NCBI RefSeq assembly: GCF_904061905.1
Contig: NZ_CAJFCI010000043.1
Location: 1 to 64,000, forward strand
Reading direction: 5' to 3'
Origin: Zestomonas carbonaria
Lineage (GTDB): Bacteria; Pseudomonadota; Gammaproteobacteria; Pseudomonadales; Pseudomonadaceae
Length of the DNA: 64,000 bases
Positions 4,141 to 63,398 of the stretch are shown here, piece after piece; positions within the stretch are counted from its first letter, which is position 1, and each line of letters starts with the position of its first letter. The translations under genes were made by a program, and so were the position numbers. A model generated the notes under the pieces. That model was not told the origin of the DNA. It ran no database searches and saw only the letters and a program-made list of their open reading frames with translations.

Positions 4141-4234
4141 CCTCTCCCGGAGGGAGAGGGGGCTATGGGGCTGGGGTTCGGCGGTGTATTTGATCGCCAC
4201 TCCGCGTGAGTCCCCTCTCCCTTTGGGAGAGGGG
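4141..4234. repeat. Pair of palindromic repeats, CCCTCTCCC/GGGAGAGGG family
   Basis: Two perfect hairpins: 4141-4159 (arms CCTCTCCC/GGGAGAGG, loop GGA) and 4212-4234 (arms CCCCTCTCCC/GGGAGAGGGG, loop TTT). The same arms recur as a pair at 32850-32965, so this is a dispersed REP-like family and not simply a nadE terminator. There is no T-tract after either hairpin. Confidence 0.75.
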
Positions 4235-19157: not shown

Positions 19158-19645
19158 GGGGTGGCGGGGAGGCGCTCGATGCCTTCGAATGGGCAATCCG
19201 CCAGCAAGGCGACGAGCGGTCGGCCGTCGGGCAGGGTCAGGTCCTCGGCGATCTCCGACAGCGGGTAGAGGACGAACGGTCGGGCGTGCATGTGGTAGTG
19301 CGGCACGGTCAGGCGCGGCTCGTCGATCGCCCTGTCGCCGAACAGCAGGATATCCAGGTCGAGGGTGCGTGGCCCCCAGCGCTCGGCCTTGCGCTGGCGC
19401 CCCTGGTCGAGTTCGATGCGTTGCAGGGCGTCGAGCAGTTCCAGGGGGGCGAGGGTGGTATCCAGCGCCGCGACCGCGTTGACGTAGCGCGGCTGGTCCG
19501 GCGGACCCAGCGGGTCGCTGGCGTACAGGGAGGACACCCGGGCCAACTGCGAATGGGGCAGCGCGGCGATCGCCGCGATCGCCGCGCGCAATTGCTCGGC
19601 CGGTTCGGCGAGGTTGCTGCCGAGGCCGATATAAACCCGCTCCAC
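19154..19645 (-). CDS. folK: 2-amino-4-hydroxy-6-hydroxymethyldihydropteridine pyrophosphokinase
   Basis: 163 residues from GTG 19645 (MERVYIGLGSNLAEPAEQL), one base after the pcnB stop (19647). The enzyme transfers pyrophosphate from ATP to the pterin in folate synthesis. Motifs: GLGSNL near the N-terminus, RVSSLYASDPLGPPDQPRYVNAVA, and the signature RKAERWGPRTLDLDILLFGD. Longer ATG starts lie inside pcnB and add residues not seen in the family. The near-overlap indicates coupling to pcnB. Confidence 0.93.
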   Translation of the reverse strand: MERVYIGLGSNLAEPAEQLRAAIAAIAALPHSQLARVSSLYASDPLGPPDQPRYVNAVAALDTTLAPLELLDALQRIELDQGRQRKAERWGPRTLDLDILLFGDRAIDEPRLTVPHYHMHARPFVLYPLSEIAEDLTLPDGRPLVALLADCPFEGIERLPATP

Positions 19646-32849: not shown

Positions 32850-32965
32850 CCCCTCTCCCGTAAACGGGAGAGGGGTGACTCGCGCCTGGAACTCCGTGCA
32901 TTCCGGCAAGTACCTGGTTTCAGACTAACTTCGGACAGCCCCCTCTCCCATTCATGGGAGAGGGG
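32850..32965. repeat. Pair of palindromic repeats, CCCTCTCCC/GGGAGAGGG family
   Basis: Two perfect hairpins: 32850-32875 (arms CCCCTCTCCCG/CGGGAGAGGGG) and 32940-32965 (arms CCCCTCTCCCAT/ATGGGAGAGGGG). Same family as 4141-4234, again arranged as a pair, between the convergent cio operon and rlmG. Loop and outer bases differ between copies. Confidence 0.78.
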
Positions 32966-52562: not shown

Positions 52563-52571
52563 TATATGAAT

Positions 52572-52603
52572 CCCCTCGTGACCCGCGTCACGAGGGGATT
52601 TTT
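52572..52603 (+). terminator. Terminator of the tRNA cluster
   Basis: CCCCTCGTGAC/GTCACGAGGGG stem with loop CCGC followed by ATTTTT, 10 bases after tRNA-Lys. Confidence 0.93.
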
Positions 52604-53999: not shown

Positions 54000-54062
54000 G
54001 GGAAGGTCTCGCAAGGCTTTTAGAAATCCGGGAGGGCGCCGAACAGGCGAGCGCAAGGCAGC

Positions 54063-54236
54063 TCATAGCACTAGACGGCTCAGAAGGCGGCTCAACAGGC
54101 CGAGGGCGATGACGGAGACGAGGATGACCGCCAGGAGCATCCAGGGGCGGAACGGCTTGCGCTCGACCCGATGCTGCGGAGCGCTCAGGTACTGGTCGAC
54201 GCGGGCTTGGTCGTCGGGGCTGAGACGGCTGGTCAT
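54063..54236 (-). CDS. DUF3094 small membrane protein
   Basis: 57 residues from ATG 54236 (MTSRLSPDDQARVDQYLSAP). A charged, helical N-terminus followed by one membrane helix (PWMLLAVILVSVIALGLLSRL). Pseudomonas-type DUF3094. It lies 63 bases upstream of ndh on the same strand, and its orthologue is next to ndh in P. aeruginosa. Function unknown. Divergent from pvrS. Confidence 0.82.
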   Translation of the reverse strand: MTSRLSPDDQARVDQYLSAPQHRVERKPFRPWMLLAVILVSVIALGLLSRLLSRLVL

Positions 54237-54357
54237 GGGAACCTCGCTTGGGATTGCAGGCATTCTAGGGCGCGATGGAAATGCCCGTCCAATCTTGTGT
54301 ACAAACTGTCGTCTCATTAAGGGCGACAGTGGCGGCCGATCCTTCCGTTCATAAGAT

Positions 54358-54371
54358 TAAGAAAAATCCTC
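54358..54371 (+). promoter_or_regulatory. Candidate RcsB-type box upstream of pvrS
   Basis: TAAGAAAAATCCTC matches 11 of 14 positions of the enterobacterial RcsAB box TAAGAATATTCCTA. It overlaps a 7-bp inverted repeat AAAATCC/GGATTTT (54363-54369 and 54374-54380). It lies 37-50 bases before the pvrS start. Use by the RcsB-like regulator encoded downstream is inference. Confidence 0.4.
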
Positions 54372-54406
54372 ATGGATTTTAGATTTGTCTGATGGAGGCA
54401 GGCGAT

Positions 54407-54431
54407 CATGCCCGTCAGTCTGACGGGCATG
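54407..54431 (+). promoter_or_regulatory. Perfect inverted repeat across the pvrS start codon
   Basis: Arms CATGCCCGTCA (54407-54417) and TGACGGGCATG (54421-54431) around GTC. The first arm contains the ATG at 54408, the second the in-frame ATG at 54429, and GGAGG (54394-54398) lies nine bases upstream. As RNA this hairpin would hide the start codon. Confidence 0.75.
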
Positions 54432-57272
54432 AGACTGAAACGGTTCCTGCAGCCCCTCGATTCACCATTTTCCACGCCCAAGGCTGCGCGCAAGTTGCTG
54501 CGGCTACTGGCATGGACCCTGATGGTATTCCTGCTCTGCGCGCTGAGCCTGTTTCTCAATGCCACCCTCAACAACGAGATATCCCAGCTTCGTCGGCACA
54601 TGAACGGTGCGATGTACGAGGCGCAGTTGTACCTCTATCAACGCGAGTCGCTGCTGGAGAACCTCAATCGAGGGGTGATGTACGGTGCCCGGGTGCCGTC
54701 CAAGTCGCTGCGGCATCTGTATGAACCGCTTCCCAGTCATGCTTACGTCAGTGTTCCGTTGGGCGATCCGGGCAGGCACTGGAGCCTGTTCCTGTCCGGG
54801 CGCGACCTGCAGGAGCTGGCGGACAAACAATTGGGCCTGCTGTACGTCGAGCCGGGTGCGACGGCTGTGACACGTCTGGATGGCGGGTTGTCGTTCGACC
54901 CCCTGGTGCCGGAGACGGTTCTCGAAGCGCTGCGGCAACCCGGTACGGAGGATGAAGAGCAGGCAGTACGCTGGCTGGCCGATCCTGCGGACGGACATCT
55001 GCGGCTGTACCTGTTCGCGCGGGTTTCCGATCACCAGGATGCCGGCTGGCTGGGGCTGGAGCTGCGCGGCACCGACCTGATGGCCTCCTTCAACGTGCCG
55101 GAAGCCGGTAGCTACCTGCTGCTCGACCAGCAGCACCGGGCGATCCTCGGCAGCGCCCCGGTCCCGGCCATGGGCGAGCATTTCCGCCAAATCTGGACGC
55201 AGGACAGTTTCGCTCTCAGTGGCGGGGACCCGCTGCACCTCCACCTGGCCCTGCTCAAGCACCTCGGCAGCTCGAACTGGAGCCTGATCTACTATGTCAG
55301 CCTGTTCGATCTGTTGGTGCCCCTGTGGCCGCAGTTGGGGCTTTCCCTGCTGCTCTGCCTGATCGCGGCAGTCACGCTGTGGGGAGTGTCCCGGCGCATT
55401 GACCGAAGACTGATCGATCCGGCGCAGCAGCGCCTGGAGGCGCTGGTGGAAAGCGAGAGATTTTCTCGCACGGTGATCCAGACCGCGCCGGTCGCCCTCT
55501 GCGTGTTACGCCGCCGCGATGCCGAGGCGGTGCTGAAGAATCATCTGGCGCAGTGCTGGCTGGAGGAGAGGGAAGTGCCTCGGCGATGGGCGCACGCATT
55601 GGTCGAAAAGGCCTTCGCCAATGAGCAGGCCGGTAACTCGGAGGAAATCGAGACGGCGGACGGTCGGCATCTCTATCTGAGCTATGCGCCAACCCGCTAC
55701 CAGGGCGAGGATGTCCTGCTCTGCGCCTTCAGCGACATCAGCGAGTGCAAGCAGACCGAGGCCGCGCTGGCCGAGGCGAAGCGCATGGCGGATGCCGCGA
55801 ACGAAGCCAAGACGTTGTTCCTGGCAACCATGAGTCATGAGATCCGCACGCCCCTCTACGGTGTGCTTGGCACTCTCGAGCTGCTTGAGCGCACTTCGCT
55901 GGATACCCAGCAGGCTGGCTATCTGCAGGCTATCCAGCGTTCCTCGTCTGCACTCCTGCAACTGATCAGCGACGTGCTCGATGTATCGAAGATAGAGGCC
56001 GGCCAGTTGGGCCTGGACATGGTCGAGTTCTCGCCGTTGGAGCTGCTCCAGGATGTGCTGCAGTCCTATGCGGCGGCGGCACGCGGCAAGGGTTTGCAGA
56101 TCTATGCCTGCTGCGATCCGCAGTTGCCGCTCGTCCTGCTGGGCGATGCCATGCGTATCCGGCAGATCCTCTACAACCTGCTGAGCAATGCGGTCAAGTT
56201 CACCGATAGCGGTCGCATAGTGGTGCGTGTGCGGGTCGTCGGGCGCGATGGTGAACGAGTCACCCTGGACTGGCAGGTCGCCGACACCGGCATCGGTATT
56301 TCCATCGAAGAGCAACGTCATCTGTTCGATCCGTTCTACCAGGTCGGCGGTCATCCCCTCTCGACGGATGGCACCGGCCTGGGGTTGTCGATCTGCCGGC
56401 GCCTCAGCGACCTGATGAATGGCTGTTTGCGAGTGGTAAGCGACTCGGGGCTGGGCAGCAGCTTCACCCTGACCCTGCCGTTGCAGCAGGTCGACACCGC
56501 GAGCGTTATAGAGCCTGAGTTGGAGGGCGCGCTGGTGTGGGTGCACGCACCAGTACGCGAACTTTCCGAAAACCTGTGCGGCTGGCTGACCCGCTGGGGC
56601 GCGCGAGCCCAGGTGGTGCTGCCCGGAAGCCAGCTCGAGATCGATGCCGAGGCCGTACTGGTGGATGTGCGTCTCGATGAGCAGGACGCGGAACCGTTGC
56701 CGGACTGGAGCGGTTGCCGGGTAGTGGTCTCCGCCAATGGCCACGATCAGCCTCGGCGCCATGACTGCGATTGGCATGTCGGCCTGTACAGCCTGGCGTC
56801 GCTATGCCAGGCCGTAGGGCTGGCGCAGGGTTGCACGAGTGCAGATAAATCGGGCGGCGGTATCCTTCCGCCACCCCAGGCGCTGGGTATGCGGGTGCTG
56901 ATCGTCGAAGACAATCCGATCAACCAACTGATCCTTTGCGACCAATTGAAGGAACTGGGCTGTAGCGTGAAACTGGCTTCCGATGGTCTCGAGGCCTTGG
57001 CGATCTGGCGTTCGAACGCTTTCGACGTGGTACTGACCGACCTGAACATGCCGCGGATGAACGGCTATGAGCTGGCCAGCGCCCTGCGCCGGGAAGGCTG
57101 CCGGGGACCGATCATCGGTGCCACGGCGAATGCGATGCCCGAAGAAAGAGAACGCTGCCGGGAGGCGGGAATGAGTGTCTGTCTGATCAAGCCGGTCGAC
57201 CTGCACGCCCTTCATAGCTGCCTGACCACCATTCAGATGGAGAATCAAGCATGTTCCCCTACCGAATCCTGA
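54408..57272 (+). CDS. pvrS: Hybrid sensor histidine kinase, PvrS-like
   Basis: 954 residues. ATG 54408 chosen for GGAGG at 54394-54398; ATG 54429 would remove seven residues. TM1 at about 38-54, a periplasmic sensor of about 240 residues, TM2 at about 303-330, a PAS-like domain about 345-450, HisKA with His477 (ATMSHEIRTPLYGVLG), an HATPase (NLLSNAVKFTD, DTGIGIS, GTGLGLSI) and a receiver with Asp878 (LTDLNMPRMNGYE). There is no Hpt domain. It is a paralogue of the RcsC-like protein downstream. The name follows the PA14 PvrS system, from order and architecture. It overlaps pvrR by 22 bases. Confidence 0.85.
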   Translation: MPVSLTGMRLKRFLQPLDSPFSTPKAARKLLRLLAWTLMVFLLCALSLFLNATLNNEISQLRRHMNGAMYEAQLYLYQRESLLENLNRGVMYGARVPSKSLRHLYEPLPSHAYVSVPLGDPGRHWSLFLSGRDLQELADKQLGLLYVEPGATAVTRLDGGLSFDPLVPETVLEALRQPGTEDEEQAVRWLADPADGHLRLYLFARVSDHQDAGWLGLELRGTDLMASFNVPEAGSYLLLDQQHRAILGSAPVPAMGEHFRQIWTQDSFALSGGDPLHLHLALLKHLGSSNWSLIYYVSLFDLLVPLWPQLGLSLLLCLIAAVTLWGVSRRIDRRLIDPAQQRLEALVESERFSRTVIQTAPVALCVLRRRDAEAVLKNHLAQCWLEEREVPRRWAHALVEKAFANEQAGNSEEIETADGRHLYLSYAPTRYQGEDVLLCAFSDISECKQTEAALAEAKRMADAANEAKTLFLATMSHEIRTPLYGVLGTLELLERTSLDTQQAGYLQAIQRSSSALLQLISDVLDVSKIEAGQLGLDMVEFSPLELLQDVLQSYAAAARGKGLQIYACCDPQLPLVLLGDAMRIRQILYNLLSNAVKFTDSGRIVVRVRVVGRDGERVTLDWQVADTGIGISIEEQRHLFDPFYQVGGHPLSTDGTGLGLSICRRLSDLMNGCLRVVSDSGLGSSFTLTLPLQQVDTASVIEPELEGALVWVHAPVRELSENLCGWLTRWGARAQVVLPGSQLEIDAEAVLVDVRLDEQDAEPLPDWSGCRVVVSANGHDQPRRHDCDWHVGLYSLASLCQAVGLAQGCTSADKSGGGILPPPQALGMRVLIVEDNPINQLILCDQLKELGCSVKLASDGLEALAIWRSNAFDVVLTDLNMPRMNGYELASALRREGCRGPIIGATANAMPEERERCREAGMSVCLIKPVDLHALHSCLTTIQMENQACSPTES

Positions 57273-58489
57273 TAGTCGAAGACCAGGCCTTCCAACGTGA
57301 GTACCTGGTGAACCTGTTTCGCGAGCAGGGGGTGAGTCGGTTGGAGGCGGCGGCGGATGGCGAAGACGCCCTGTCGCGCTTGAAGGCTCGCGAATTCGAT
57401 CTGGTCCTGAGCGACCTGATGATGCCGGGGCTGGACGGCGTGCAACTGATCCAGCGACTGTCCGAACTCAAGCGGCCGCCGCTATTGGCAATCATGAGTT
57501 CGTCTTCCCGGCGGGTGATGGGGAGTGCCTGTCGGCTGGCCAGTGTCCTGGGCATCACGGTCGTCGGCCAGATCGCCAAACCGGCGTTGCCGCTGTCTAT
57601 CCGCCGCCTGCTGGGTAAGCTGGAGAAAGGGAAGCGTAAACACGATGCTCTTCCGACCGATGATCGCAGGGAGTGGAAACCCGATGAGCTGTCGGCTGCA
57701 CTGAAGAACTGGCAGTTCCAGGCCTGGTTCCAGCCGAAGAAGTCTCTGGGCGACGGCCGCATTTCCGCCGCCGAGGCGCTGGTGCGCTGGATCCACCCGC
57801 AGCACGGTACGCTGATGCCCGGCGAGTTCATATCCTCCCTGGGGCAGGCCGGTCTGGACGAGGCCCTGCTCTGGCTGGTTCTCGAACAGGCCCTGCGTGC
57901 CCAGGCGCTGTGGGGCGAAGCGGGTTTCCGCATTCCGGTGTCGGTGAACTTGCCGACGCACCTGCTGGACGACCCGAGCCTTCCGGATCGCCTGCACGAT
58001 TTCGTGGTCACCCACGCTGGCGCCCCTGGCAGCATCGTCTTCGAGTTGCTGGAGTGCAGCACCACGGTGGCGCCCAGCAATTACTACGCCGGAGCCTGCC
58101 GTCTGCGGATGAAAGGGTTCGGTCTGGCGCAGGACGATTTCGGCCAGGGCTACAGTTCGTTTTACAACCTGGTGTCGACGCCCTTCACCGAGCTGAAGAT
58201 CGACCGTGCGCTGATCCGTGGTTGCGTCGAGGACGACGGCTTGTCTACGGCTCTGGAAAGCATCGTCAGCCTGGGCAGGCAATTGGGCCTGGAAGTGGTG
58301 GCCGAAGGAGTGGAGAGCAAGGAGGAGCTGGCCATGCTGCGCCGCTTCGAGTGCGACCGAGTCCAGGGCTTCCTGATTTCCGAAGCGGTCGCGCCGCAGT
58401 TGTTCTTGCAGTTGCTTATGGATGAGCGGGCGAATGTGGCATACCTGCCGGCTTCCCGTGCCACCGCTACCGGTTCGTTGCATGCTTGA
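57251..58489 (+). CDS. pvrR: Response regulator with EAL c-di-GMP phosphodiesterase domain, PvrR-like
   Basis: 412 residues. Receiver 1-125 with Asp55 (LVLSDLMMPGLDG); EAL domain about 150-395. Metal and catalytic residues appear intact: EAL at 175-177, Asn in PVSVNLP, Glu in FELLECST, DDFG in QDDFGQGYSS, Lys in ELKIDR, EGVE in AEGVES and Gln in VQGF. It should hydrolyse c-di-GMP to pGpG when active, opposing fimbria production, as PvrR does in PA14. Lies between the two hybrid kinases. Confidence 0.88.
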   Translation: MFPYRILIVEDQAFQREYLVNLFREQGVSRLEAAADGEDALSRLKAREFDLVLSDLMMPGLDGVQLIQRLSELKRPPLLAIMSSSSRRVMGSACRLASVLGITVVGQIAKPALPLSIRRLLGKLEKGKRKHDALPTDDRREWKPDELSAALKNWQFQAWFQPKKSLGDGRISAAEALVRWIHPQHGTLMPGEFISSLGQAGLDEALLWLVLEQALRAQALWGEAGFRIPVSVNLPTHLLDDPSLPDRLHDFVVTHAGAPGSIVFELLECSTTVAPSNYYAGACRLRMKGFGLAQDDFGQGYSSFYNLVSTPFTELKIDRALIRGCVEDDGLSTALESIVSLGRQLGLEVVAEGVESKEELAMLRRFECDRVQGFLISEAVAPQLFLQLLMDERANVAYLPASRATATGSLHA

Positions 58490-58556: not shown

Positions 58557-61500
58557 ATGCGTGTTCGGACGCTTTTGCCTATGGCCCCTGACAACGGATC
58601 GATCCACAAGCTGGCGAGCACCTCGCTGCGCTTGAATATCGTCCTGCTTTGCGCCCTCCCGTTGGCAGTGTTGCTGATCGGTATCACTTACTGGGCACTG
58701 GGGCGGGTGGTCCAGGAAGAGAAAGACAAGATCAACTTTCATTTCTCCCGGCTGATCGGCGATATCCTTGAGCACGAGAAATTCCTGATGCGGGAAACGC
58801 GACCAGGCGCCCTGCCGTCGGAAAGCGGTGCGAAGGAGCAGGATATCGTCCCGGTGCGGGGCCGTCTGCTCGCGCGCATCGACGGCCTGGAAATCCACGA
58901 GGGGCGAGAGTTCTCCTTCGCCATGCCGTTCACCCTGGCGCAGCGGCGACGGCATCTGGAGTTGGGCGACCATCCACGGCCGTTTTCCCTGGGAGTGCGG
59001 TTGGCCAACTTCTACAGCAGCTACTGGAGTATCTCGCGGTATCCCTCTCCGCAGGTCGTGCTGTTCGACATGAACAGCTCGACCAGCCTCGCGGTGCCTT
59101 CCATCGGCAACTTCCCAGGCCACAACGCTCTGACCAGGGAGACCTACCAGGCTGTGATGGAGCGTATCCGCGATGGGGTGCAGCAGAGCCGCCGTCCGGA
59201 GGAGGATACCTCCGTGCAGTGGGGCGTGGCCCGGCGATACTCCGGTGATGACGCTAACCTGGAGCTGCTGGGCTTCACGACCCTCGATGTGCCCGATTCG
59301 CTCTGGTGGGTCGGCGACCAGACGCGTCACGTGGTAGCGGTTTCCTTGCTGGATCTGGAGCGAATCGACGATTTCGAGCAGATACTCGCCCGTGCGGTTT
59401 TCGACGAGATGGCACTGATTTCGCCACGGGGCGACGTACTGGTCGATTCGCAGGCGATGCCGCAGGACTATGACGAAGGCATGACCTTCACGGCAAACGG
59501 CCTGCTGTTCAAGCTGAGCAGCGCTCCACAGAACGGTTGGGTGGCGCTCTACAGGGTCGATTACCGGAGCCTGTTCCGTACCGCCAAATGGCCGTTGCTG
59601 GGCATTCTTGCGTTGCTGCTGGGAAGCCTGGGCGGTGGTTGGTACATGGTTCGCTGGTATGCGCGCCGGGTGGTGGAGCCTGCCAACCGGGCACACCGCT
59701 ATATCGTCGAGAGCGATGCTTTCAGCCGCGACGTGATCCAGACCGCGCCAGTCGCCCTTTGCGTGATGCGCCGTAGCGACCACCAGGTGGTGATGCAGAA
59801 CCGTCTGGCCGAACTCTGGCTCGGCGATGCCCAGAACATTACCAGGATGAGTCGCGACTGGGACTTTTCCACCGCGCCCGGTGAGGCTGGCGGTGAGGTT
59901 TGCGCAGTGGTCAATGGGCGCTATCTGTGCGCCAGCTTCGCACCGACCCGCTACAACGGCGAGGATGTCGAGCTCTGTGCCTTCAACGACATCACCGCAC
60001 ACAAGGAGGCTCAACTCGCCCTGGCCGAGGCGAAACGCTCGGCGGACGCGGCGAGCGAGGCCAAGACGCTGTTTCTGGCGACCATGAGCCATGAAATCCG
60101 TACGCCGTTGTACGGTGTGTTGGGTACCCTGGAACTGTTGGGCCTGACCGAGTTGACCCAGCAGCAGGAGGAGTACCTGCGCACCATCCAGCGCTCATCC
60201 TCGACCTTGCTGCAGTTGATCAGCGACGTGCTCGACGTATCGAAGATCGAGGCCGGGCAGATGGCCTTGGAAGAAGTGGAGTTCAGCCCACTGGAGTTGG
60301 CTGAGGAGGTCATGCGTGGCTATGCCGCGGTGGCCGAAGGCAAGCACCTGCAGTTCTACGCTTGCGTGGATGCCGAGGTGCCGGGGCTGGTGCGGGGCGA
60401 TGCGGCGCGTATCCGGCAGATCCTCAACAACCTGCTGAGCAATGCCCTGAAGTTCACCGACATCGGCCGGGTGGTGCTGCGCCTGAAGCCGATCGAGTTC
60501 GGGGATGGTTGGGTGGAGCTGCAATGGCAGGTTACCGATACGGGTATCGGTATCTCCGAGGAGCAGCAGGAGCGGCTGTTCGAGCCGTTCTACCAGGTTC
60601 ATGGACATCAACATACGATCAGCGGTACCGGCCTGGGTTTGTCGATATGCTGGAGCCTGACCCGGATGATGGATGGCTCACTGCGGGTGATCAGTGAGGT
60701 CGGCCTGGGCAGCAGTTTCACGCTGCGACTGCCCCTGGAGGTTGTGGATACGCGCCAGCGTGCGGCCGAGGGTATCCAGTTGCTGCGCGAGAGCGTCTAC
60801 GTACGCGCTCCGTTGAAGGAGTTGGCCGCCTGTCTGTGCGCCTGGGTCGAGCGTTGGGGGGCGACAGCGATTGCCGTGGCTTTGCTACCGAACTCCCCGC
60901 CGGAAGGCTCGGTGCTGCTCGATCTGCTGCCGGACGGCTTGCCCGAGTCGACATGGGCCGGGCCACGAGTGAGTGCTCTCCTTGATGGAGGTTATCTGCC
61001 GCAGCGGGTTGGGCAGGATTGGCAGGTGAACATTCACCACCTGCGAGGGATCGGCCAGGCGTTGCGGCTCGCTCAGCGTGGCGAAGCGGTCATGGAGATG
61101 GCGGATGAGCCGGCGCCGAGGCTGGAGAAACTGGGGCTGCGCATCCTGGTTGCCGAGGACAACCCGATCAACCAGGTATTGCTCAAGGAGCAGTTGGAAG
61201 AGCTCGGCTGTAGCGTGGTGCTGGCGGCGAACGGCCGAGAGGCGTTGCGGCACTGGGGGGCGGGTGACTTCGATCTGCTGCTGACCGATGTGAACATGCC
61301 GGAGATGAACGGCTATGAACTGGTCAAGGCCCTACGCCAGCAGGGTGTGGACATCCCCATCATCGGTGTGACCGCAAACGCCACGCGCGAGGAGGGCGAG
61401 CGTTGCATGGCGGTGGGGATGAACGCCTGGCTGGTCAAGCCGATGAGCCTGTGTACGCTGCATGGAGGATTGAGGAGGGTCTGCGGTGGTATGCCACCGG

Positions 61501-61826
61501 CAGTGAGCCCTCCATCGGCAAGCGTCGCAGCCGATGAGGCGGTGGACCGTATCCAGGTCTCGGAGAAGATGCGAGGCCTGTTCCTGAAAACCATGCGGCA
61601 GGATACGCAGAGCTTGCGCGAAGCCTTGCTGCGGGGAGACCTGGGCGATGTTCGACAGATGTTGCACCGTCTGCGTGGCGCCCTGGCGGTAGTGCAGGCA
61701 CATGGCCTGGCCGAAGCTTGCGGCTCCGTTGAAGAGGACTTGCTGGCCGAATCCCCGGGGCCGGATCTGAGCGCCAAGGTGGCGGCTCTGATGGAACGGA
61801 TCGGCGCGGCCCTGGAAGATATCTAG
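58557..61826 (+). CDS. rcsC: Hybrid sensor kinase with Hpt domain, RcsC-like
   Basis: 1089 residues. TM1 about 27-49, periplasmic domain about 50-340, TM2 about 345-366, PAS about 385-485 (VIQTAPVALCVMRRSDHQVV), HisKA with His512, HATPase, receiver with Asp911 (LTDVNMPEMNGYE) and a C-terminal Hpt with His1037 (MLHRLRGALAVV). It can therefore carry a complete His-Asp-His relay to the next response regulator. The kinase core is close to that of the PvrS-like protein. Start 58557 is the most upstream ATG; ribosome site weak. Confidence 0.86.
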   Translation: MRVRTLLPMAPDNGSIHKLASTSLRLNIVLLCALPLAVLLIGITYWALGRVVQEEKDKINFHFSRLIGDILEHEKFLMRETRPGALPSESGAKEQDIVPVRGRLLARIDGLEIHEGREFSFAMPFTLAQRRRHLELGDHPRPFSLGVRLANFYSSYWSISRYPSPQVVLFDMNSSTSLAVPSIGNFPGHNALTRETYQAVMERIRDGVQQSRRPEEDTSVQWGVARRYSGDDANLELLGFTTLDVPDSLWWVGDQTRHVVAVSLLDLERIDDFEQILARAVFDEMALISPRGDVLVDSQAMPQDYDEGMTFTANGLLFKLSSAPQNGWVALYRVDYRSLFRTAKWPLLGILALLLGSLGGGWYMVRWYARRVVEPANRAHRYIVESDAFSRDVIQTAPVALCVMRRSDHQVVMQNRLAELWLGDAQNITRMSRDWDFSTAPGEAGGEVCAVVNGRYLCASFAPTRYNGEDVELCAFNDITAHKEAQLALAEAKRSADAASEAKTLFLATMSHEIRTPLYGVLGTLELLGLTELTQQQEEYLRTIQRSSSTLLQLISDVLDVSKIEAGQMALEEVEFSPLELAEEVMRGYAAVAEGKHLQFYACVDAEVPGLVRGDAARIRQILNNLLSNALKFTDIGRVVLRLKPIEFGDGWVELQWQVTDTGIGISEEQQERLFEPFYQVHGHQHTISGTGLGLSICWSLTRMMDGSLRVISEVGLGSSFTLRLPLEVVDTRQRAAEGIQLLRESVYVRAPLKELAACLCAWVERWGATAIAVALLPNSPPEGSVLLDLLPDGLPESTWAGPRVSALLDGGYLPQRVGQDWQVNIHHLRGIGQALRLAQRGEAVMEMADEPAPRLEKLGLRILVAEDNPINQVLLKEQLEELGCSVVLAANGREALRHWGAGDFDLLLTDVNMPEMNGYELVKALRQQGVDIPIIGVTANATREEGERCMAVGMNAWLVKPMSLCTLHGGLRRVCGGMPPAVSPPSASVAADEAVDRIQVSEKMRGLFLKTMRQDTQSLREALLRGDLGDVRQMLHRLRGALAVVQAHGLAEACGSVEEDLLAESPGPDLSAKVAALMERIGAALEDI

Positions 61827-61890
61827 GAACTATCCTTGTAACGATGGCCGCACCCCTTGAACGCAAATGTTCGGAGCCAATGAAGTACTT

Positions 61891-62541
61891 ATGGAAAAAG
61901 TCAGAGTTGTTTTGGCGGACGACCACCCTATCGTCCTGATGGGGGTTCGCGAGGTGATCGAGCGCGATGGGCGTTTCGCCGTGGTTGGCGAGGCGCTGAG
62001 CTCCAGTGAGCTGGTCCGGCTGTACAAGGAGGTGCGGCCGGATATCGTGATTACCGACTACAACATGCCCGGTGACCAGACCTACGGCGATGGCATCAAG
62101 CTCATCGAGTACCTGCTGCGCAACTTCCCGGCGACTCGCATCCTGATCCTCACCATGCTGTCGAACAACCTGATCCTGTCGAGCCTGTATGACCTCGGGG
62201 TGTCAGGGGTGATCCTCAAGAACGGTGATCTCAACGAGATTCTCGTTGCCCTCGACACGCTCGTCCGCCAGAACACCTATCGTGGCCCCTGCATGCAGTC
62301 GAATAACAGCGTGTTGCCCGACAGGGACGATATCGATGGGCGCATCGCCAGTCTTTCGATGAAGGAGTTCGAAGTGTTGCGGCACTTCGTCTCCGGCATG
62401 AGCGTCGGCGAGATCGCTCTGCACCTGAAGCGCAGCGTGAAGACGGTCAGCGCTCAGAAGGTCGCGGCGATGCGCAAACTGGAAGTGGACAGCGACCAGG
62501 CACTGTTGCTGTTCTGCATCAAGTCCAACCTGTTCCAGTGA
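61891..62541 (+). CDS. rcsB: LuxR/NarL-family response regulator, RcsB-like
   Basis: 216 residues from ATG 61891 (MEKVRVVLADDHPIVLMGVREV), the length of E. coli RcsB; an upstream ATG at 61867 is possible. Receiver with Asp56 (IVITDYNMPGDQTYGDGI, close to the RcsB stretch DLSMPGDKYGDGI) and a C-terminal HTH with SLSMKEFEVLRHFVSGMSVGEIALHLKRSVKTVSAQKVAAMRKL. Probable transcription activator of the fimbrial genes that follow, phosphorylated through the Hpt of the RcsC-like kinase. Confidence 0.87.
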   Translation: MEKVRVVLADDHPIVLMGVREVIERDGRFAVVGEALSSSELVRLYKEVRPDIVITDYNMPGDQTYGDGIKLIEYLLRNFPATRILILTMLSNNLILSSLYDLGVSGVILKNGDLNEILVALDTLVRQNTYRGPCMQSNNSVLPDRDDIDGRIASLSMKEFEVLRHFVSGMSVGEIALHLKRSVKTVSAQKVAAMRKLEVDSDQALLLFCIKSNLFQ

Positions 62542-62650
62542 TTCCCCACCGGCCCGGGCCGGTGTCATGTGAAGCGATCCGATACCTCGCGAGAAGACTC
62601 TCGCTGCTCCCGTTTTCCGCATTCCTCGGTGCCAGTTTCCATGCTGGCTT

Positions 62651-62664
62651 TAGGAATTATCTGA
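62651..62664 (+). promoter_or_regulatory. Candidate RcsB box upstream of the fimbrial operon
   Basis: TAGGAATTATCTGA matches 12 of 14 positions of KMRGAWTMWYCTGS, a degenerate RcsB-box consensus I recall from enterobacteria. It lies in the 311-base rcsB-pilin space (62542-62852), about 190 bases before the pilin start. That space also has a CACCGGCC/GGCCGGTG hairpin just after rcsB (about 62545-62562). Confidence 0.42.
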
Positions 62665-62710
62665 TGTCTGGGTTCCCTTCTTCTTCCTAGAGTAGCGCTC
62701 GCCGAGGCTG

Positions 62711-62852: not shown

Positions 62853-63398
62853 ATGCAAAAGCATCTGCTCGCCGCCATGGTTTCACTGGCTGGCGTGAGT
62901 ATTTCACTGGGCGCTTTCGCGGCATCTCCCGCCGCCGGCACGCTGAACGTTACCGGCAAGGTGACCAGCACCGCCTGTGCGCTGGATCCGACCCAGGTCG
63001 ACGTGAACGTGGCGCTGCCGATTGTGGACAAGTCGCTGCTGGCAAACCAGAACGACACTGCCGGCCGTACTCGCTTCGTTCTCAACGTCACTAGCTGCGA
63101 CCCGGGCGTCAAGGCGTCGGTTGCCTTCACTCCAGATGGCAATGTCGATGCCAACGGCAACCTGAAGAACATCTCCGTTGACCCCAACGGCGTCACCAAC
63201 GCCCAGGTCCAGATCCTCGACGAGAATTTGAACCCGATCAACATCGCCAACGATACCAATGTGATGAATCGCGCCGTGGTAGCGGACGCGTCGGGCAACG
63301 CGGCGCTGCAGTACTACGCCCAGTACTTCGCTGCGCAGAACGACACCACGCCGGGTGCTCTGTCCGCCAGCGTGCAGTTCGTCATGTCCTACGAGTGA
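62853..63398 (+). CDS. Chaperone-usher fimbrial major subunit, CupA1/CupD1-like
   Basis: 181 residues from ATG 62853 after TTGGAG; the ATG at 62826 would precede the signal peptide with extra polar residues. Signal peptide MQKHLLAAMVSLAGVSISLG plus AFA, then the mature ASPAAGTLNVTGKVTSTACALDP. Two cysteines (STACALD and VTSCDPG) form the type 1 pilin disulfide. The C-terminus ends ALSASVQFVMSYE, the donor-strand-type beta strand with a penultimate tyrosine. Exported and assembled on the surface. First gene of the Cup operon. Confidence 0.88.
   Translation: MQKHLLAAMVSLAGVSISLGAFAASPAAGTLNVTGKVTSTACALDPTQVDVNVALPIVDKSLLANQNDTAGRTRFVLNVTSCDPGVKASVAFTPDGNVDANGNLKNISVDPNGVTNAQVQILDENLNPINIANDTNVMNRAVVADASGNAALQYYAQYFAAQNDTTPGALSASVQFVMSYE

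Follow-up and report, generated by a model that had tools for sequence, protein, structure and literature searches.

A perfect inverted repeat spans the start of pvrS, the first gene of a predicted pvrS-pvrR-rcsC-rcsB operon, in the 64,000-nucleotide (nt) stretch of Zestomonas carbonaria DNA analysed here (contig NZ_CAJFCI010000043.1, positions 1 to 64,000; 'the window'). The reading that we favour, with a probability of roughly 0.42, is that this palindrome is one version of a family-wide dyad, and that the dyad is a fold-back hairpin forming only in transcripts begun upstream, where it would hide the pvrS start. Judged from the aligned sequences, the family dyad appears to span the -10 of a promoter of RcsB type, ending at or in the pvrS start codon, while its own sequence varies.

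The window dyad, TCATGCCCGTCAG-T-CTGACGGGCATGA (54406-54432), consists of 13-nt arms that are 100% complementary around a 1-nt centre. The perfect repeat reported at this place by the first-pass annotation is thus real, and larger than the 11 base pairs (bp) and 3-base loop given there; the GGAGG that it had placed ahead of the repeat lies at 54394-54398. With up to three mismatches allowed, the 27-nt dyad matched only its own two strands in the window, and its 23-nt core matched only itself in the 5.55-Mb genome, which rules out a repeat or repetitive extragenic palindromic (REP) element. As RNA, positions 54400-54440 fold with -21.3 kcal/mol (z score -5.2 versus shuffles), and the window leader, at -24.3 kcal/mol, is the most stable of all, the 102 other leaders ranging from -22.3 to -1.9 (median -11.0). 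No match to Rfam was found in 54100-54800 at expectation values up to 1, so the dyad is not a known Rfam RNA family, and no intrinsic terminator was found in 54220-54520. Strong inverted repeats are not rare in the window DNA (14 with arms of at least 10 nt, three with arms of at least 13, some terminator-like by eye), yet one on a start codon is rare. Ten first-order resampled windows harboured 0-4 repeats with arms of at least 10 nt and none with arms of at least 13. Two further perfect inverted repeats lie at 19561-19587 and 52569-52600 (13- and 14-nt arms), the latter followed by a T run that gives it the look of a terminator, and a REP-like inverted repeat, CCCCTCTCCC...GGGAGAGGGG, is present in three window copies (4212-4234, 32850-32875 and 32940-32965).

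The pvrS frame holds two in-frame ATGs, at 54408 and 54429, both of which had been taken as possible starts. Genomes with a pvrS match, own genome included, numbered 40 of 149 and 103 of 398 for the genus and 73 of 398 for the family; the named genomes yielded 79 loci, in the last 24 of which the match is confined to the C-terminal part of the query. The best named homologues, at 60-62% identity (P. nicosulfuronedens, P. nitroreducens and Pseudomonas sp. PDM18), begin to match at the residue equivalent to the second ATG, and the predicted family start is this ATG, with some homologues predicted to start slightly further in. An in-frame ATG further upstream, at variable positions, is present in several of them. 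The nearest leaders align gap-free with that of the window (the row of L271, on the wrong strand, was ignored), and in that alignment neither the first ATG nor the GGAGG has a counterpart. Since CATG is its own reverse complement, a dyad drawn through a CATG start necessarily gives rise to a second CATG, and the ATG at 54408 is a by-product of this mirroring; CATG occupies both arms in 6 of 103 leaders. Two starts as a designed feature are ruled out by the predicted homologue starts and the self-mirroring of CATG, and the earlier view of alternative start codons is not supported, on the same grounds.

Covariation between the arms was measured as the longest perfect stem between positions -28 to -13 and -9 to +2 (the A of the family ATG being 0), with a leader's own arms compared with swapped partners. 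These own-versus-swapped statistics were adopted because the RcsB-like box upstream dominated column-by-column covariation (it is displaced by 1 nt from one group to another; the top helix scored 7.2), where the dyad helix (-22,-2) reached z 4.0 and was not the top one. The comparison windows were picked after the discovery set had been viewed, so that the z score of this set is post hoc; the second and third sets used the same windows unchanged. The discovery set combined 50 genus leaders (repeated genomes skipped), 39 named-genome leaders and the window, 62 of them non-redundant. Named loci were left out when they came from other genera without a recognised family start (L109-L116), had just 50 nt upstream (L122), started outside the match (L117, L118, L120, L121, L123, L124 and L126) or matched by the C-terminal part only (L127-L150). 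For the second set 7 of 60 leaders were dropped and three starts were set by hand, leaving 24 non-redundant among 53; the third held 47 leaders (17 non-redundant), each start being assigned to whichever in-frame ATG came closest to the spacing expected after the box.

Own arms paired better than swapped ones. Across all non-redundant leaders with the window excluded, z was 7.1 (n = 102; 0 of 10,000 permutations), and it was 6.0 for the discovery set without the window (n = 61), 3.1 for the second set (n = 24; 26 of 10,000) and 3.4 for the second and third sets pooled (n = 41; 11 of 10,000). The signal persisted when swaps were confined to groups of similar N-terminus (n = 85; z 5.1; 0 of 10,000) and when leaders were dereplicated to below 0.6 identity (z 3.5; n = 36). 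Control region pairs gave no signal (z -1.8 to 1.9). In a position scan, z values of 5.8-7.0 were reached solely when the right arm was placed at the start codon, falling to 3.2 at the next step and to between -1.7 and 2.4 elsewhere. The ATG bases themselves are mildly over-paired in register (A in 20, T in 12 and G in 22 of 62, versus swapped shares of 0.20, 0.14 and 0.36).

The leaders share a promoter-like arrangement into which the dyad is set. A box like TTTAAGGATCGTCTGATT stands at -52 to -50 in 82 of 85 leaders, and a TANNNT begins at -13 to -11 in 75 of 85 (13, 4 and 2 of 85 in same-size control stretches), so placed that the family -10 ends 6 nt ahead of the ATG. On a profile built from those 82 leaders (own scores: minimum 15.9, median 26.2) the window box scores 21.6; TTTTAGATTTGTCTGAT is identical in P. 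nicosulfuronedens, P. nitroreducens and Pseudomonas sp. PDM18. The 20 fetched regions contain 16 further sites with the same box plus TANNNT at the same internal distance, one of them ahead of the fimbrial-type gene of the window (62649-62693), and because of this recurrence the module looks like a promoter, whose transcript start should, in pvrS, fall at the ATG. A box search returned 46 hits; 11 were left out, and the comparison drew on the window's own site and on the 34 that have TANNNT at the fixed offset. No dyad was present at the 16 other sites (z -0.5), whereas the 18 pvrS promoters from the same regions, window omitted, carried it (z 4.8); on this contrast in sequence the dyad signal is assigned to the pvrS start and not to the promoter type. 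A 4-nt Shine-Dalgarno match occurs in just 5 of 85 leaders, and this rarity, together with the fixed box/-10/ATG spacing, predicts a native pvrS mRNA that is probably leaderless and without the 5' arm, contrary to the hairpin in the normal mRNA pictured earlier. We infer that RcsB binds the box and that the operon activates itself; in the cupD1 promoter of strain PA14, a putative RcsB site is needed for promoter function by mutation, according to the available text of PMC3842833. Below the scan threshold, 54357-54385 also holds, upstream of the conserved box, another stretch resembling an Rcs box, TTAAGAAAAATCCTC, and a candidate TTAAGA-17-TAGATT promoter. In L119 (Pseudomonas sp. PDM18) the RcsB-like box is tandemly duplicated, as TTTTTAGATTTATCTGAT and TTTTTAGATTTGTCTGAT, with starts 24 nt apart.

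In the favoured fold-back reading, the native transcript would begin at or beside the ATG, carry no 5' arm and be translated freely. A transcript from further upstream, whether read-through or spurious, would carry both arms, fold back and hide the pvrS start; pvrS RNA left untranslated in this way would become accessible to Rho, and coupling to the overlapping pvrR would be lost. The pvrS-pvrR-rcsC-rcsB operon, which is probably self-activating, would thus be kept off unless its own promoter fires. Complementary arms with the 3' arm at the translation start, as a start-hiding hairpin has, are present in the window, and the location of the 5' arm upstream of the native start is predicted from the box/-10/ATG spacing. 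More tentatively, and with doubts that we would put ahead of our hopes for it, such dyads may form a class: sequence-free, covarying and placed around promoters of leaderless, self-activating operons, they would form in every improper transcript and never in the proper one, so that the regulator is read solely from correctly started RNA.

Several results weigh against this reading. The third set alone was not significant (n = 17; z 1.0; 2008 of 10,000), and by N-terminus group z was 4.2, 2.8, 1.8, 1.5 and -0.9 (n = 30, 26, 16, 5 and 5), above 2 in two of five. Of 103 leaders, 41 have a perfect stem of at least 5 bp, which extends into the ATG in 16 of them. Among the 15 closest leaders (L261-L275; L277, L278, L280 and L281 belong to the same genus-level group but were not counted, their leaders being of other types), the core symmetric about the -10 has 6 pairs in seven, 4-5 in three and 0-3 in five. 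The compensating changes that the first-pass annotation had proposed to seek among homologues exist at family scale, but several of these closest leaders alter one arm uncompensated, which tells against that annotation's reading as much as against ours. The window itself has a weak -10, its CAGTCT being without the first T of TANNNT (the nearest leaders mostly have CAGGCT there), as well as a good Shine-Dalgarno sequence and its own upstream ATG.

Further points concern the neighbourhood. An insulator against read-through from a neighbour would predict a stronger dyad in codirectional and fimbrial contexts, an expectation that is not clearly met. By a rough coding-bias rule, 56 of 102 upstream neighbours are codirectional, 24 divergent and 22 unclear, and the dyad is present in every class (z 4.8, 3.4 and 2.2, respectively); a hand classification gave z 3.3 for codirectional (n = 27) and 1.5 for opposite neighbours (n = 15). 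Leaders with the end of a fimbrial-type gene upstream gave z 2.3 (n = 28) and those without z 6.1 (n = 74), and the window's own upstream neighbour, a DUF3094 gene, is divergent. Since the dyad is alike with divergent neighbours and not stronger after a fimbrial gene end, read-through from an adjacent gene cannot be its sole reason.

An unlikely alternative, and the one proposed earlier, is a native translational switch: the mRNA would start upstream, for example from the TTAAGA-17 nt-TAGATT sequence at about 54392, and the hairpin would hide both ATGs, the one at 54408 with its Shine-Dalgarno sequence and the one at 54429, until opened by temperature, a factor or a small RNA. In its favour, the window has GGAGG 9 nt ahead of ATG 54408 and a very stable stem, and the family covariation also suits a leader hairpin; a 5-pair hairpin in the native sigG leader lowers translation 2-4-fold in the account available from PMC5942855. 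Against it, the leaders are unconserved ahead of the box, at 0.04-0.05 bit of mean information (n = 102), and have no conserved promoter there, a + strand sigma-70 scan of 54220-54520 found no site, and both the rarity of Shine-Dalgarno matches and the missing upstream ATG and GGAGG in the nearest leaders speak against a start there.

Rather unlikely, too, is a dyad working as DNA, that is, an operator or promoter-melting element over the -10 that acts on transcription. Its location on the -10 (median dyad centre -12.5), the operator-like 0-1 nt spacers in some leaders (the window, L023, L072 and L102) and its independence of the neighbour fit such an element. The RNA-type asymmetry in mismatches is also absent, which counts against the fold-back hairpin: an initial 16 G-U versus 7 A-C lost its excess with a control (G-U 25 and A-C 20 of 135; null shares 0.178 and 0.151). 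The fold gain of own over swapped arms (n = 85) was 2.55 kcal/mol on the + strand (z -8.3) and 2.16 on the - strand (z -10.3). An operator of the dimeric kind (the first-pass annotation had considered an operator if the repeat acts as DNA) is argued against by the variability of the arms: their sequences differ between lineages and their centre-to-centre distances run from 7 to 25 nt, with no conserved half-site or fixed spacing among pvrS leaders, and the same promoter module does without a dyad at the 16 other sites.

It is improbable that the window palindrome is a recent local accident, in which template switching copied the 3' arm to form the 5' one, and is not maintained, whatever the family does. 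In favour of such an accident, its 3' half is close to relatives (the counterpart in L270 is CTGGCGGGCATGA), its 5' half is new (most nearest leaders carry GCTTTTCGCC or similar there) and the close leaders have just 0-6 core pairs; against it, the palindrome sits at the family's single covarying place, and L280, from another genus-level group of the family, has a similar hairpin of 10 pairs over the CATG of its start.

The genes downstream support the assignment of the system. PvrS has the HisKA, HATPase_c and receiver domains of the hybrid sensor kinase and is without Hpt, and the four genes pvrS, pvrR, rcsC (with Hpt) and rcsB (with GerE) are adjacent, as in a PvrSR/RcsCB operon. By eye, from sequence and position, what looks like a cup fimbrial cluster follows rcsB; for the putative fimbrial-type gene at 62853 the predicted leader is about 150 nt. 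The DUF3094 region (54060-54273) is matched in 30 of the 57 genomes searched, own included, and is 82% identical in G027. Because the matches of G027 and G028 to this region end short of the pvrS promoter, the pvrS operon may be an accessory insertion in the window genome. By protein, no plasmid copies were found for the window (E up to 1e-20) or for L280 (E up to 1e-5).

Table: Positions and strands of the dyad, the promoter elements and the operon genes in the window.
Feature	Position	Strand	Remark
RcsB-like box TTTTAGATTTGTCTGATG	54377..54394	+	placed as in the family, 52 nt ahead of the family ATG
GGAGG (54394-54398) and upstream in-frame ATG (54408-54410)	54394..54410	+	window-specific among aligned leaders
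5' arm TCATGCCCGTCAG	54406..54418	+	window-specific half; predicted upstream of the native transcript start
-10-like hexamer CAGTCT in dyad centre	54416..54421	+	family position; weak by itself
dyad centre T	54419..54419	+	precedes the predicted family start codon by 10 nt
3' arm CTGACGGGCATGA	54420..54432	+	contains the predicted family start codon; resembles nearest relatives
pvrS, hybrid histidine kinase (HisKA, HATPase_c, receiver)	54429..57272	+	predicted family start 54429
pvrR, receiver-EAL	57251..58489	+	overlaps the pvrS end
rcsC, histidine kinase-receiver-Hpt	58557..61826	+	
rcsB, receiver-GerE response regulator	61867..62541	+	longest open frame
second box and TAGAGT module	62649..62693	+	same internal spacing, without dyad, before the fimbrial-type gene at 62853

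PvrSR/RcsCB controls CupD fimbriae, biofilm formation and dispersal in P. aeruginosa PA14, as set out in the accessible part of PMC3842833. A covarying start-site dyad with a predicted leaderless RcsB-like-box promoter would add a control layer to this operon, one of a kind not described in the accessible parts of the two PA14 papers (PMC3842833 and PMC2696094), where no pvrS promoter, transcript start or hairpin appears; PMC3842833 nowhere contains the terms autoregul, feedback or pvrS promoter. In the open-access literature, taken as listings and abstract starts and with most subscription papers outside its scope, no pvrS hairpin or transcript start was found. The dyad suggests how a self-activating switch stays off, and comparing own with swapped arms could be applied genome-wide to learn how frequent promoter-wrapping hairpins are.

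The transposase genes of IS10, IS50 and IS200 are protected from outside transcription by RNA structure that hides their start. The likeness lies in the mechanism, a structure that exists only in transcripts entering from outside and covers the start; the difference is that those are genes of mobile elements, whereas pvrS belongs to a two-component operon with a predicted leaderless start. In B. subtilis sigG, a large hairpin is proposed to block the read-through transcript and cannot form in sigG's own transcript (PMC5942855, from the text available), just as the pvrS hairpin is predicted to be unable to form in the transcript of its own promoter. The sigG hairpin, however, has 20+ base pairs and a normal ribosome-binding site in that source, whereas perfect pvrS stems, where present, measure 5-9 bp (13 in the window), the mRNA is predicted to be leaderless, and the dyad is found also with a divergent neighbour. 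The closest counterpart in gene content is the PvrSR/RcsCB-cupD system of PA14, for which the available portions of PMC3842833 and PMC2696094 treat the same four genes, predicted to form a single operon, and include the putative RcsB site of cupD1. Among the primers in PMC2696094, one for pvrS deletion contains the reverse complement of CTTTCGGCATGAAGTTG from L280, matching its 3' arm, and from this match PA14 has at least the 3' arm of L280.
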